The notes below the pieces were generated by a model. The model searched no databases and was not told where the DNA came from. It saw only the letters and a program-made list of their open reading frames with translations. From Chloroflexota bacterium (GTDB taxonomy: Bacteria > Chloroflexota > Dehalococcoidia > Lucifugimonadales > UBA3495), in NCBI GenBank assembly GCA_026710825.1, contig JAPOQH010000006.1:1-64000 (forward strand): a DNA stretch of 64,000 nucleotides, written 5' to 3'. The position numbers were made by a program, and so were the translations under genes. Below, one piece after another: positions 15,394 through 49,037 of the stretch. Numbering within the stretch: position 1 is the stretch's first letter; the number at the start of each line of letters is the position of its first letter.

Positions 15394-15662
15394 AAACCTA
15401 TCCCACCACACCACCCCCAACCCGCCCACGATGAGCCCGTTGATCCATCCGCTGCTCGCCGACACCCTCCCCCATCCACCAACGCATCCCGTGGAACCTG
15501 CCCACTTCTGGCGCTCCCCGTCCATCCAAGCAGACGGTGACGTTGCGAGTTGGATGGTTTCTGCTAATAGAGACGGACAATCATTCGCCCCTACCCTGGT
15601 CACCGGCGCCGTTTGACCGAGTGAACCACCTGAAACGGAGCGTTGCCAAGCAAACGAGACCC

Positions 15663-16050
15663 TTGACAAAGCGAACGCATGAGCCCATAATGGTCTCACT
15701 CGAGTTAGAACATAACATCCAGCACCGTCCCGCCAGAGGTGATACCGGTCGTACACGGCCAACCCGTCAGACTCCAAATCGCATACCAGCCTCCGCCAGG
15801 ACCAGCGACCGGTCGCTCTAGCCGGTGTGGTCGCAACGGGGCCAGCGCCTCCCCACACGCTGGGAGGTCAGCGCATCCACCTCTCCCATCTTTTCCGGGA
15901 GAGGCCAGGGCCAGGGATTCCTCCCGACCCGTGCGCTGTCCGCCAAACCTTGAGTGGGCAAAAACCCATGCGTAACCCCTCGGCCGTGGGGCTGACAACG
16001 ACCACCATCACCTCTGGCAGACACCCAAATCAAAGACACCGAAAGGAGCA
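15663..16050 (+). ncRNA. Conserved promoter-led RNA-like element, copy 1 (upstream of HEPN-like gene)
   Basis: A near-consensus promoter (TTGACA 15663-15668, 17-nt spacer, CATAAT 15686-15691) precedes a long stretch shared with 29835-30263 and 48367-48745. Conserved marks are a palindrome at the expected start (ACTCGAGT, 15698-15705), an exact 14-mer AAATCGCATACCAG (15776-15789), a hairpin with loop TCGGCCGT and stem CCCC/GGGG (15976-15991), the nonamer CTGACAACG (15992-16000) and AAAGGAG (16042-16048). The HEPN-like gene starts 32 nt after the last mark, so the element could be its leader or a separate RNA. The class is unknown to me. Confidence 0.65.
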
Positions 16051-16079: not shown

Positions 16080-16673
16080 TTGAAAACCTACCGGAGCAAG
16101 CGCCTGTTGAACCCCGAGCATCACCTGGACCTCAGCCGACAATACCTGGACTATGTTTCCAGGGACATCTCCGCCGGCGACTACGCAAGGGCGGCAACCG
16201 CCCTAACCCGGTCGGCCAGTCACGCCGCAACCGCCGCCGCCGTGCATTGGCATCATCTTCATTACAGCCGACGGCGACTCAACGTCGTAATGACCGAATT
16301 GGCGTTTGACCGTCGTATCCGCCGCACCCACGTCCGCACGTTCGTCGAAGTGTACCGAACTTTGGATCAGATAATGCGAGAGCCGCCCGCGACCGCCTTT
16401 CGAAGGTTGCGCCGGATGCGACGCCGCGTGTCCCGCTTGATCGCAGCCATCACGGCCGCAATCGCGGCCCAACCGGACGTGCCCACGCTGGAACAGCTCT
16501 TGGCCGACCCGACCAGAGTGCCCGCCCCGATCCCGTCGCCCCGGATTACCACCATCGGTGAGTTGAGGGACGCGTTGGGTCAGTCCGTCGACACCGACCA
16601 CCGCAACCATCCCATCGACTGCCCCGGTTGCCGCATCAACTTCCACGGCCCAAGCCCGGCCCACGCCGTCTGA
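16080..16673 (+). CDS. HEPN-like protein with RX4H motif and C-terminal CPxC, paralogue 1
   Basis: The 197-residue product is paralogous to the gene at 29095-29673. Over residues 14-125 the two align without gaps at about one-third identity. Shared points are HHLD, Y(A/L)RA, L-x-RS-x2-HAA, RRRL, F-x2-R(I/L)-x3-H-x2-TF and RV-x-RL. The R79-x4-H84 motif and all-helical character resemble HEPN ribonuclease domains, although the usual polar residue after Arg is Ile or Leu here. The C-terminus carries CPGC (181-184), possibly half of a metal site. The start is uncertain: TTG at 16080 has no close ribosome site, and AAAGGAG sits 32 nt upstream. Function is inferred only. Confidence 0.75.
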   Translation: MKTYRSKRLLNPEHHLDLSRQYLDYVSRDISAGDYARAATALTRSASHAATAAAVHWHHLHYSRRRLNVVMTELAFDRRIRRTHVRTFVEVYRTLDQIMREPPATAFRRLRRMRRRVSRLIAAITAAIAAQPDVPTLEQLLADPTRVPAPIPSPRITTIGELRDALGQSVDTDHRNHPIDCPGCRINFHGPSPAHAV

Positions 16674-29094: not shown

Positions 29095-29673
29095 CTACGG
29101 GGCTCGGGGAATCAGCCTGGCGGGCAGGTTGGCGCATTTTGGGCAGACCTGCGGGTCGTAGGCCAAACGCATACCGGGTGCGCCGATCGCTGGCACGGAC
29201 AAGTTGTTGCAGCGCGCTGGGACAGTGGTGTGCATCTCTTCCAACTGGGGCAGCCTGCTGAGGAGCCTGGGGATGCCAGTTTCCTCGTATGCTTCCCACG
29301 GACCGCCATCATACATGACGTTCGACACGTCCCTGACCAACCGTTTCACACGCGGACGCATGACGCGAACCATGTGGCGGGTCTCGGCTGGCGTCGCGGT
29401 TTCCATCCGATGGGGCAAATCATGGACACGACGAAAGGTTGTCAGATGCGCATGAGGCAAACGGCCCTCAAAAACCAACTCCGACAATACATTGTGCAGG
29501 CGCCGCCGAGTTCGCACCGGCCGGCCCTGCTTGGCCAGAATTGAACTGGCGGCGTGGGTTACGGAACGGCGGAGGGCGTCGACGGCCCTGAGATACTGTT
29601 CGTCATGGAAATCCTCAAGGGCAAAATGAAGGTAACGCTGTGCGCGATCCAAGTGATGATCAGAAGTGCCCAT
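29095..29673 (-). CDS. HEPN-like protein with RX4H motif and C-terminal CPxC, paralogue 2
   Basis: This 192-residue protein is the paralogue of the gene at 16080. Residues 6-118 align without gaps and keep HHLD, LRRSVTHAASS, RRRL, the R71-x4-H76 motif followed by TTF, and RPRVKRL. The C-terminal third differs but again carries a CP-x-C pair (177-180). The helical domain and RX4H motif suggest a HEPN-type ribonuclease, unproven. The ATG at 29673 has GGAGG 13 nt upstream, a rather long spacing. The conserved RNA-like element at 29835-30263 lies upstream in the same orientation, as for the paralogue. Confidence 0.78.
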   Translation of the reverse strand: MGTSDHHLDRAQRYLHFALEDFHDEQYLRAVDALRRSVTHAASSILAKQGRPVRTRRRLHNVLSELVFEGRLPHAHLTTFRRVHDLPHRMETATPAETRHMVRVMRPRVKRLVRDVSNVMYDGGPWEAYEETGIPRLLSRLPQLEEMHTTVPARCNNLSVPAIGAPGMRLAYDPQVCPKCANLPARLIPRAP

Positions 29674-29834: not shown

Positions 29835-30263
29835 CTCCTTTCAGGCGATGGAGTGGCGAATCAGGCGATGGAGTGGCGAATCAGGCGATGGAGTGGCGGT
29901 TGTTTTGATTTGCTTTTGCCAGGGTTTCCCGCCGGTGGCGGACTCTTGCGAGCGGGCCGTTGTCAGCGCGCGGCCGGTTGGGTACGCATGGTAGTTTTGC
30001 TCGGTATTTACCGTGGCCCACATGGCTGGCTCGCCTCTACAGACGGCCCGCCACACAGCACGGAACGCTGTGGCTGACGCTGGGGTACTGACGGCCACGC
30101 TGCTGATGCGCTAAGCAGACGTTAGCAGACAGGAACCCTGGTATGCGATTTTTGCTGACTGGGTGGCCGCTAGGCCCGAAACCCTGGCATGGATTTTGTC
30201 GTGGTGATAAACAATTGTTCGCCTGATGAATCCAGTATAGGGATTGGTGAAACTCGGCCACAA
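29835..30263 (-). ncRNA. Conserved promoter-led RNA-like element, copy 2 (upstream of HEPN-like gene)
   Basis: On the minus strand TTGTGG (30258-30263), an 18-nt spacer and TATACT (30234-30239) precede the shared element. It has a start-proximal palindrome AACAATTGTT (30210-30219) and the exact 14-mer AAATCGCATACCAG (30138-30151). A hairpin with GCGT/GCGC ends lies around the common CGGCC loop (29966-29987). CTGACAACG (29958-29966) and AAAGGAG (29835-29841) follow. This copy is lengthened by a 20-bp tandem repeat just before AAAGGAG. A CAGCG...TGCTG hairpin is shared only with copy 3. Confidence 0.65.
29841..29898. repeat. 20-bp tandem repeat (2.9 copies) inside copy 2 of the RNA-like element
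   Basis: The unit TCAGGCGATGGAGTGGCGAA is repeated without change at 29841, 29861 and 29881 (the last incomplete). On the element's strand each unit contains CACTCC, which could pair with the adjacent AAAGGAG. Confidence 0.9.
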
Positions 30264-30517
30264 CAGCCGAATGTCACTTCCGTGGAAAAAGATTAAATTG
30301 GGAGGGCTGAGGCTCTGGATGTCCGGCTGAGCCGGCGAGCAGTCGCGGGTTGGAGTAAATTCTTTAGTCGGGCTCAGGACCGGAATGACCAGAGGAATGC
30401 GGAAATGATCATGGCGTCGCGTTTTGTCGGCGATGACGGTGTGGCGGTATGAGCAGGGGCGAATCCGAAAGGCGAACCAATTCGTAGTCACGGCATCTAC
30501 AATCGGGAGCTTTGATA

Positions 30518-48297: not shown

Positions 48298-48320
48298 GGG
48301 GCGAATGATTATTCGCCCCT
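48298..48320. repeat. Palindromic GGGGCGAAT/ATTCGCCCC repeat
   Basis: A 9-bp stem with a short centre, located directly after the end of RNA-like element copy 3. Confidence 0.8.
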
Positions 48321-48366
48321 ACATTTGGCGGTTGATTGGTGGTTGCGGTGTTTGGGTTGGCGGTTT

Positions 48367-48745
48367 CTCCTTTGGGGGTTCTTGGGGTTTTGGCTGGTTG
48401 GGGAGGCAGGATTCCCGTTGCATCGTTGTCAGCGTACGGCCGGGGGTACGCATATTCTTATGCTCGGTATTCTCCGTGGCCCACATCGGCCATCCGCCAT
48501 GACGTGCCCATCAGGGCCGGTTCATTGGGATAGACGACGCAGCACGGAACGCTGTGGCCGGTGCTGGGACGCAACTCCACGCTGTTGATAGGTTAAACAG
48601 ACCTTGGCAGTCGCGGAGCCTGGTATGCGATTTGTTACTGACGGGGTTGGCCGTCGATGCTGGGAATCCTGCCTCACTGGTGTTGGGATAAACGTACGTT
48701 TGGTCTAGACACAGTTAGGATATACGTTCTTATGGGCGGTGTCAA
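48367..48745 (-). ncRNA. Conserved promoter-led RNA-like element, copy 3 (solo)
   Basis: On the minus strand TTGACA (48740-48745), a 17-nt spacer and TATCCT (48717-48722) precede the shared element. It has the palindrome AAACGTACGTTT (48690-48701) and the exact 14-mer AAATCGCATACCAG (48620-48633). A perfect hairpin with stem GCGTAC/GTACGC lies around loop CCCCGGCC (48432-48451). CTGACAACG (48424-48432) and AAAGGAG (48367-48373) follow. Unlike copies 1 and 2, no HEPN-like gene follows; a palindromic repeat and then the cyclase gene lie downstream. Confidence 0.65.
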
Positions 48746-49037
48746 GTGGTAGTGTCGGGGTTATTTTTTACCGGGATAAACGGGATTTACGGGATGGACA
48801 GGATATTTTTGTGATTGCGTGTGGATTTGGGTAACGGAGGGACGGTGTGGGGTGCGGGGGTTGGGGACGGGCGAATAATCATTCGCCCATTCAATCGGAG
48901 TACGGTGGTGGTTCGACCGACGCACCGTGAGCGGATCAGGTCGGAGTATCGAGAGGTACTGGGGTTGGTCTCGCGGGGTGTTGCATTTTGATATTTTGTT
49001 TCGTACAATCGTACTGTTTAGAACAGGAGGTCGCAAA
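48746..49037. other. Intergenic repeats upstream of small gene
   Basis: Contains direct CGGGAT-type repeats (about 48775-48803), a GGGCGAAT/ATTCGCCC palindrome (48869-48888) and a partial GTTCGACC...GTGAGCGG repeat near 48915. No gene is evident. A TTGTTTCG...TACTGT stretch near 49000-49018 may be the promoter of the following gene. Confidence 0.55.

Follow-up and report, generated by a model that had tools for sequence, protein, structure and literature searches.

A structured RNA, its promoter, and a HEPN-fold protein gene as one mobile unit in a Chloroflexota bacterium and its relatives

Introduction

In the AbiF (Abi_2) systems a structured noncoding RNA (ncRNA) gene lies directly 5′ of the gene of a HEPN-type protein and such an RNA, for instance that of RCd22-AbiF, is reported to neutralise the HEPN-type toxin in cis and in trans (PMC12373285). 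Type III toxin-antitoxin systems (ToxIN, CptIN, and TenpIN) also place an RNA 5′ of the protein gene in one unit (PMC12373285). Here we describe a comparable arrangement in a Chloroflexota bacterium. The window analysed was a stretch of 64,000 nt, positions 1–64,000 of contig JAPOQH010000006.1 of assembly GCA_026710825.1 (hereafter G000; 3.86 Mb, 137 contigs). It contains three copies of an element formed by a promoter and a structured RNA, and the initial annotation had recognised them as an RNA candidate. That account was incomplete, given that in copies 1 and 2 a gene for a HEPN-fold protein follows, and the copy makes up the 5′ part of the whole unit. Our firmest statement is that promoter, structured RNA, and HEPN protein make up a mobile unit whose RNA-only derivatives have been kept and multiplied. 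What is said below on the RNA structure, the promoter, the coupling to HEPN, the HEPN fold, the mobility in the relative G006, and the conservation of RNA-only copies comes from comparison of sequences. A literature search, with few subscription journals covered, listed no work on this RNA and none on a unit of HEPN and RNA in SAR202.

RNA Structure and Copies in the Window

The main evidence was the closing stem P1, in which the region 5′ of the 5′ core pairs with the region 3′ of the 3′ core. From 62 distinct complete copies, 32 representatives below 85% identity were taken. The mean pairing energy was −34.9 kcal/mol with the own partner versus −19.7 kcal/mol with other partners, a result reached in 0 of 10,000 permutations (n = 32), and the own partner ranked first in 14 of the 32 and sixth in the worst case. 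The arms differ widely in sequence: GAGGCAGGATTCCC/GGGAATCCTGCCTC in type B, GCCAGAGGTGAT/ATCACCTCTGGC in type A, GCCAGGGTTTC/GAAACCCTGGC in type C, and GGAGATTCAAGTC/GACTTGAATCTCC in G002. P1 is a strong covarying helix, absent from the initial annotation. Inside it, the pair N-TCAG...CTGA-N is G-C or A-T in 61 of the 62 copies, and in 59 of them the pair of CGC-N...N-GCG is either A-T or T-A, changes which represent few evolutionary events. RNAalifold, applied to a subfamily of 10 sequences, gave 57 pairs with 96.4% of the cells paired; 14 of these pairs change on both sides (7.1 in shuffles and 0–4 with slid partners), with a covariation score of 0.202 versus 0.121. Covariation of paired bases had initially been read from a hairpin with a CGGCC loop. 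It was confirmed, but in P1 and in the RNAalifold pairs: the stems CCCC/GGGG of copy 1 and GCGTAC/GTACGC of copy 3 occupy different alignment columns, so they are not strict covariation, and the copy 3 form of the hairpin is broken in some relatives (L073, L074). The predicted RNA gene measures about 220–330 nt. It was also possible to see, in the G011 form (L301, L305, L317, L323), a middle that holds three imperfect repeats of roughly 70 nt each.

A search of Rfam had been proposed as a check, and the RNA matches no family of Rfam 15. At gathering thresholds the whole window gave only a tRNA; at E up to 10, seven loci of several types gave nothing beyond the tRNA and, in a part of L101 that does not belong to the RNA, a ClpQY promoter match of 17.7 bits.

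The three copies lie where they had been placed, and the 14-mer AAATCGCATACCAG described as shared occurs exactly three times in the window; at up to 2 mismatches the chance expectation in the window is 0.27, and 0 of 100 shuffles reached three. CTGACAACG and AAAGGAG are common to all copies as well. The promoters of copies 1 and 3 agree with their first description; that of copy 2 is present, but its −35 box is weaker. Alignment of the copies showed common blocks at both ends and a variable middle, and the copies of G000 were classified in three types: copy 1 belongs to type A, copy 3 to type B, and copy 2 to type C, which has a second member (C28:23333, L046) with the same −10 region as copy 2. 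Type B has two alternative middles between identical ends, as if exchanged by gene conversion. Other copies of the genome (L006–L008) match copy 1 at 97% from the promoter onward, with unrelated upstream flanks; compared with L003/L004 they present one RNA body with two promoter types, as from gene conversion.

The palindromes reported at the expected transcription start are real and differ in sequence among the copies: ACTCGAGT, AACAATTGTT, and AAACGTACGTTT in copies 1, 2, and 3. A palindrome of at least 8 bp was found in 21 of the 32 family representatives, versus a mean of 5.9 and a maximum of 13 in 300 shuffles, and a complement to the start site of at least 9 nt was found in the stretch after P1 in 5 of 32 (shuffles 0.24, maximum 2). 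Copy 2 carries TCAGGCGA at the start, with a 9-nt complement to the three TCGCCTGA located directly before AAAGGAG. ATCGGGC stands at the start in 14 of 15 G002 copies, with two or three GCCCGATA downstream, and by eye the fifteenth (L320) has GTCGGGC with GCCCGACA, both sides being changed.

Coupling to the HEPN Gene

A HEPN-fold gene follows copies 1 and 2, and none was found in the 1.2 kb downstream of the AAAGGAG of copy 3. In related loci GGAG lies about 8 nt before the HEPN start. The helical bundle of the HEPN fold was recognised in the predicted proteins. Against Pfam HEPN PF05168, copy 2 reached 18.6 bits (E = 0.0021) and L190 15.9 bits, for a cut-off of 22, and copy 1 was unmatched; a sequence-only search of the PDB gave 8 matches, the best (E 0.0027) to Syn-F4-Link and none HEPN by name. 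None of 6 proteins matched the PADLOC defence database.

The protein was located in 61 places. Among the 46 that were checked, 9 had less than 450 bp upstream, which left 37 testable loci; of the other 15, 14 were G006 fragments, all with both RNA cores, and one (L170) had no N-terminus. The RNA was present upstream by the strict pattern in 28 of the 37 and, in 8 of the other 9, in a diverged form whose pattern was drawn from L199 after its inspection. A second HEPN group of about 240–270 amino acids (L199, L193, L327, L328, L330, L331, L334, L335) has its own much diverged upstream RNA, defined by pattern only as ACGGTCAAC..ATCGTCGGAT..TTGCATCGC and GGCCGTAGCGCCGAC, with ends of the GAGGTTCAGG/CCTGAACCTC type. 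At least one HEPN-bearing copy exists for each of types A, B, and C of G000, for the two types of G002, and for each main type of G006. In the comparison of nonsynonymous and synonymous substitution rates (dN/dS), 2 of the 14 pairs (G003c with G003d or G010a) were left out, their frames being misplaced.

One HEPN subfamily has ATC at the start position in 7 of 7 loci from 7 genomes (L094, L097, L105, L109, L111, L118, L198), preceded at a distance of about 8 nt by GGAG or a similar sequence. AUC appears to be a conserved non-standard start codon in these loci, which recalls the AUU start of infC.

Copy Number and Distribution

In G000 there were 18 matches to copy 1 and 35 to copy 3, some copies of the latter set being counted in two pieces and some being of type A or C. 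Considering that many contigs of this assembly end inside copies, as is expected of repeats, its copy number was based on exact 5′ cores, with 24 matches. The 5′ core pattern had matches in 13 of 14 genomes of the genus: 89 in G006, 48 in G002, 26 in G011, 24 in G000, 18 in G005, and fewer in the others, the lowest counts being 2 (G001) and 0 (G004); backward-pattern controls gave 0–2 per genome. One of the 89 (3130809) is unlike the family, leaving about 88 copies in one chromosome. Copy 3 matched 8 of 60 genomes searched (own included), 7 of them within the genus. Outside the genus the strict core was at chance level (0–3 per genome versus 0–2 in controls), and the strict form, whose pattern would miss diverged RNAs such as that of the L199 group, was found only in this genus. 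The named records that encode the HEPN protein (32 loci) are all Dehalococcoidia, Chloroflexi/Chloroflexota, or SAR202 metagenome-assembled genomes.

Such spread and conservation across whole genomes might belong to a family of trans-acting small RNAs that serves the host and has no relation to HEPN activity, carried around by mobile elements and kept for dosage. This we consider improbable, given the regular presence of the RNA at HEPN loci (strict or diverged) and the confinement of the strict form to the genus.

Two further searches were set aside. A protein profile matched 17 of 294 genomes of the class (own included), and the 16 other matches (E 5e-12 to 9e-4), which were weak and in most cases incomplete, were taken as generic HEPN. 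For a viral origin, the profile was compared with viral_contigs, and none of 58 pattern matches was confirmed.

Conservation of RNA-Only Copies

Diversity was calculated in 29 distinct G006 copies, gaps excluded. It was 0.019 in the RNA, 0.102 in the promoter, 0.143 in the spacer that follows the RNA, 0.057 in the Shine-Dalgarno/start region, and 0.30 upstream; the remnant of the open reading frame (ORF) gave 0.073 in 15 copies, with gaps in 79 of 217 columns. In the 14 copies without the longer ORF remnant the values were 0.016 for the RNA versus 0.169 for the spacer, and in the 15 with one they were 0.024 versus 0.143. The RNA is 6–10 times less variable than the adjoining spacer, and singletons occupied 15 of 222 RNA sites versus 9 of 35 spacer sites. 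The same low RNA diversity recurs in two G002 types. Since the pairs covary between species, it is the RNA structure itself that is kept.

These values bear on two other explanations. The RNA could be a cis-acting leader that only regulates translation of the downstream HEPN, the RNA-only copies being decaying remnants. Its location on the same strand 5′ of HEPN, the complementarity between the start-site element and the repeats before the Shine-Dalgarno sequence in some subfamilies, and the AUC starts would fit a leader; however, the RNA of RNA-only copies keeps a low diversity, whereas 79 of the 217 columns of the ORF remnant in other copies contain gaps, and we regard a mere leader as unlikely. 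Neutral repeats kept alike by gene conversion would account for the mosaic types with common ends, different middles, and exchanged promoters, but not for compensatory stem changes across species or for the drop in diversity at the RNA ends; covariation largely refutes this explanation, which seems to us very improbable.

A preference for divergent left neighbours was also evaluated with a home-made gene finder: 18 of 21 RNA-only copies in G006 and 49 of 68 pooled had one (p 0.0004 versus 0.5). RNA-free gaps of at least 250 bp (19 divergent, 21 tandem, 9 convergent) already predict about 60%, and therefore this bias was not built upon.

Mobility

Mobility was analysed in the closed genome G006, with the same number of copies (29). 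The inverted ends GGYAGCGTT... and ...AACGCTGCC were both found in 17 of 29 copies, and 8 of these 17 (L178, L180, L184, L269, L278, L282, L291, L297) have exact target duplications of 9–10 bp, among them AGTCATTTC, CCTTTGCGG, TCGCGCGCC, GTCAAGTGC, GCGATTTTT, TAGCCGGCA, and GCCAGCCTG; the rest have near-matches or none. Inverted repeats with target duplication are the marks of a DNA transposon or miniature inverted-repeat transposable element (MITE). In 13 of the 29 the HEPN gene is cut to about seven codons before the end repeat. Some paired inverted ends (G006:C1:757388-757509 and 658612-658733) are spaced about 122 bp and enclose no RNA core; they probably represent a simpler MITE belonging to this vehicle. 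Homology among 11 copies of G000 mostly ends at the promoter and the Shine-Dalgarno region. Just upstream of copy 1, window positions 15625–15650 read ACCACCTGAAACGGAGCGTTGCC, close to the G006 terminal repeat.

The initial annotation had argued for a functional RNA rather than an insertion element. The structured RNA stands, but by its G006 relative the element is also mobile DNA; the alternative was a false choice, as it is both at once.

Taking this mobility into account, the element could be a selfish RNA, in which the RNA, being recognised in cis, lets the DNA unit spread while HEPN helps in trans, the RNA-only copies being non-autonomous parasites of complete ones. The high copy number in one chromosome, the RNA kept while the protein gene is cut away, the G006 units with inverted ends and 9-bp duplications, and the persistence of HEPN-bearing copies are all consistent with it. 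However, the G006 ends are ordinary inverted repeats that occur without RNA, so a separate transposase probably moves these elements. In addition, they had no match (26-mer, 2 mismatches) in G000 with its 24 RNA cores, and the vehicle is therefore not the same in the different species. We consider a selfish RNA doubtful, though of some weight.

Coordinates of the Features

The features are collected in Table 1. Palindromic repeats of the GGGGCGAATAATCATTCGCCCC type crowd the intergenic regions near RNA copies, as in the flanks of copy 3 (about 48300–48325 and 48868–48890) and at other loci.

Table 1: Features of the three copies in the window.
Feature	Positions	Strand	Detail or basis
Copy 1 (type A) promoter	15663–15691	+	TTGACA, 17 bp, CATAAT; read directly
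Copy 1 palindrome	15698–15705	+	ACTCGAGT, near expected transcription start
Copy 1 structured RNA	15732–16018	+	P1 5′ arm to P1 3′ arm; P1 duplex, permutation test
Copy 1 P1 arms	about 15732–15752 and 15998–16018	+	
Copy 1 5′ core	15757–15783	+	
Copy 1 14-mer	15776–15789	+	AAATCGCATACCAG
Copy 1 3′ core	15970–15996	+	
Copy 1 AAAGGAG	16042–16048	+	3′ of RNA; read directly
Copy 1 HEPN-fold gene	16107–16673	+	188 amino acids; TTG start aligned with relatives' ATG; GGAG about 10 nt upstream
Copy 2 (type C) promoter region	30234–30276	−	TGACA, TTGTGG, 18 bp, TATACT
Copy 2 start-site element and palindrome	30210–30227	−	ATCAGGCGA 30219–30227; AACAATTGTT 30210–30219
Copy 2 structured RNA	29918–30188	−	between P1 arms 30178–30188 and 29918–29928
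Copy 2 14-mer	30138–30151	−	AAATCGCATACCAG
Copy 2 repeats	29841–29888	−	three TCGCCTGA, complementary to start-site element, last joined to AAAGGAG (29835–29841)
Copy 2 HEPN-fold gene	29095–29673	−	192 amino acids; Pfam PF05168 (below cut-off) and family alignment
Copy 3 (type B) promoter	48717–48745	−	TTGACA, 17 bp, TATCCT
Copy 3 palindrome	48690–48701	−	AAACGTACGTTT; read directly
Copy 3 structured RNA	48403–48675	−	between P1 arms 48655–48675 and 48403–48425
Copy 3 5′ core	48626–48652	−	type represented by L011 and L033 in P1 permutation test
Copy 3 14-mer	48620–48633	−	AAATCGCATACCAG
Copy 3 AAAGGAG	48367–48373	−	3′ of RNA

Discussion

We propose that each copy would be a structured RNA gene with its own sigma-70-like promoter, closed by a long end-to-end stem. 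Where the unit is complete, as in copies 1 and 2, transcription would continue via the Shine-Dalgarno sequence into the HEPN-fold gene, of about 190 amino acids. The RNA would be a dedicated partner of HEPN which most likely binds the protein and restrains or directs it, like RNA antitoxins. RNA-only copies such as copy 3 would have arisen when the protein gene was deleted; they would then have been spread by mobile DNA and would still act in trans with the HEPN protein from the few complete copies. Binding or control of HEPN by the RNA is suggested by their coupling, by the retention of the RNA after protein loss, and by the AbiF precedent. With moderate confidence, we favour the reading that the RNA is the partner of HEPN, in the manner of AbiF and similar pairs of RNA antitoxin and HEPN protein, though from an unrelated family and with RNA-only derivatives that have multiplied.

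Several points weigh against this partnership. The RX4-6H motif is not conserved: RX4H is at the likely site in 10 of 23 proteins and the constant pair is R-x3-H, which makes an RNase activity of HEPN doubtful. One of the 37 testable loci (L336, a weak HEPN match) has no RNA by the strict pattern, the relaxed one not being applied there, and no HEPN-bearing copy was seen for the main G011 RNA types or the L280 type of G006. Further pair types numbered 24, not above the 25.7 of shuffles (452 of 500), and neither the P1 permutation nor the subfamily controls fully remove kinship. The uniformity of the RNA could also result from gene conversion among copies, or from selection for mobility alone or on the moving lineage. 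That the RNA is transcribed, that it binds and controls the protein, and that it acts in trans are steps that we infer. Finally, if the RNA were an antitoxin only, many spare RNAs should permit loss of the toxin, yet HEPN is kept. Such retention in the presence of dozens of spare RNAs is an argument for a useful function of the protein together with the RNA, over and above addiction.

An extension of the proposed partnership, which we offer only tentatively, is a bacterial counterpart of short interspersed nuclear elements (SINEs): about 90 promoter-bearing RNA copies per chromosome would be satellites of rare RNA-HEPN masters, forming a ribonucleoprotein in trans and carried by species-specific vehicles.

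The element represents a candidate new RNA family, absent from Rfam, with a putative protein partner in an uncultured lineage, and a mobile DNA that preserves and multiplies the ncRNA to a greater extent than the protein. It may offer a second setting beside AbiF for RNA control of HEPN proteins and a natural experiment on the reasons for which dozens of copies of a single RNA persist in a genome.

Comparison with Known Systems

AbiF differs from the present unit in its Abi_2 domain, which 0 of 10 HEPN proteins here match at E up to 5 or 10, and AbiF proteins are longer. RX4-6H is the catalytic RNase signature of the HEPN superfamily, and its lack of conservation is another difference from AbiF. 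Repeats of 36–37 nt like those of abiF were not noticed in the RNA. Also unlike AbiF, RNA-only copies have multiplied here to tens per chromosome. With respect to type III systems, the protein fold here is HEPN, with no ToxN-like endoribonuclease match in Pfam; no short tandem RNA repeats were seen by eye, with no repeat program run, in the copies inspected, and the G011 form has its three imperfect ones. Regarding HEPN-MNT (type VII), a Pfam scan of 7 proteins near copies 1–3 gave no MNT. Bacterial MITEs, some of which are linked to small RNAs, resemble this element in being short non-autonomous units with inverted ends, target duplications, and tens of copies, and they differ from it in the payload, which here is a promoter and a covarying RNA tied to a HEPN gene.
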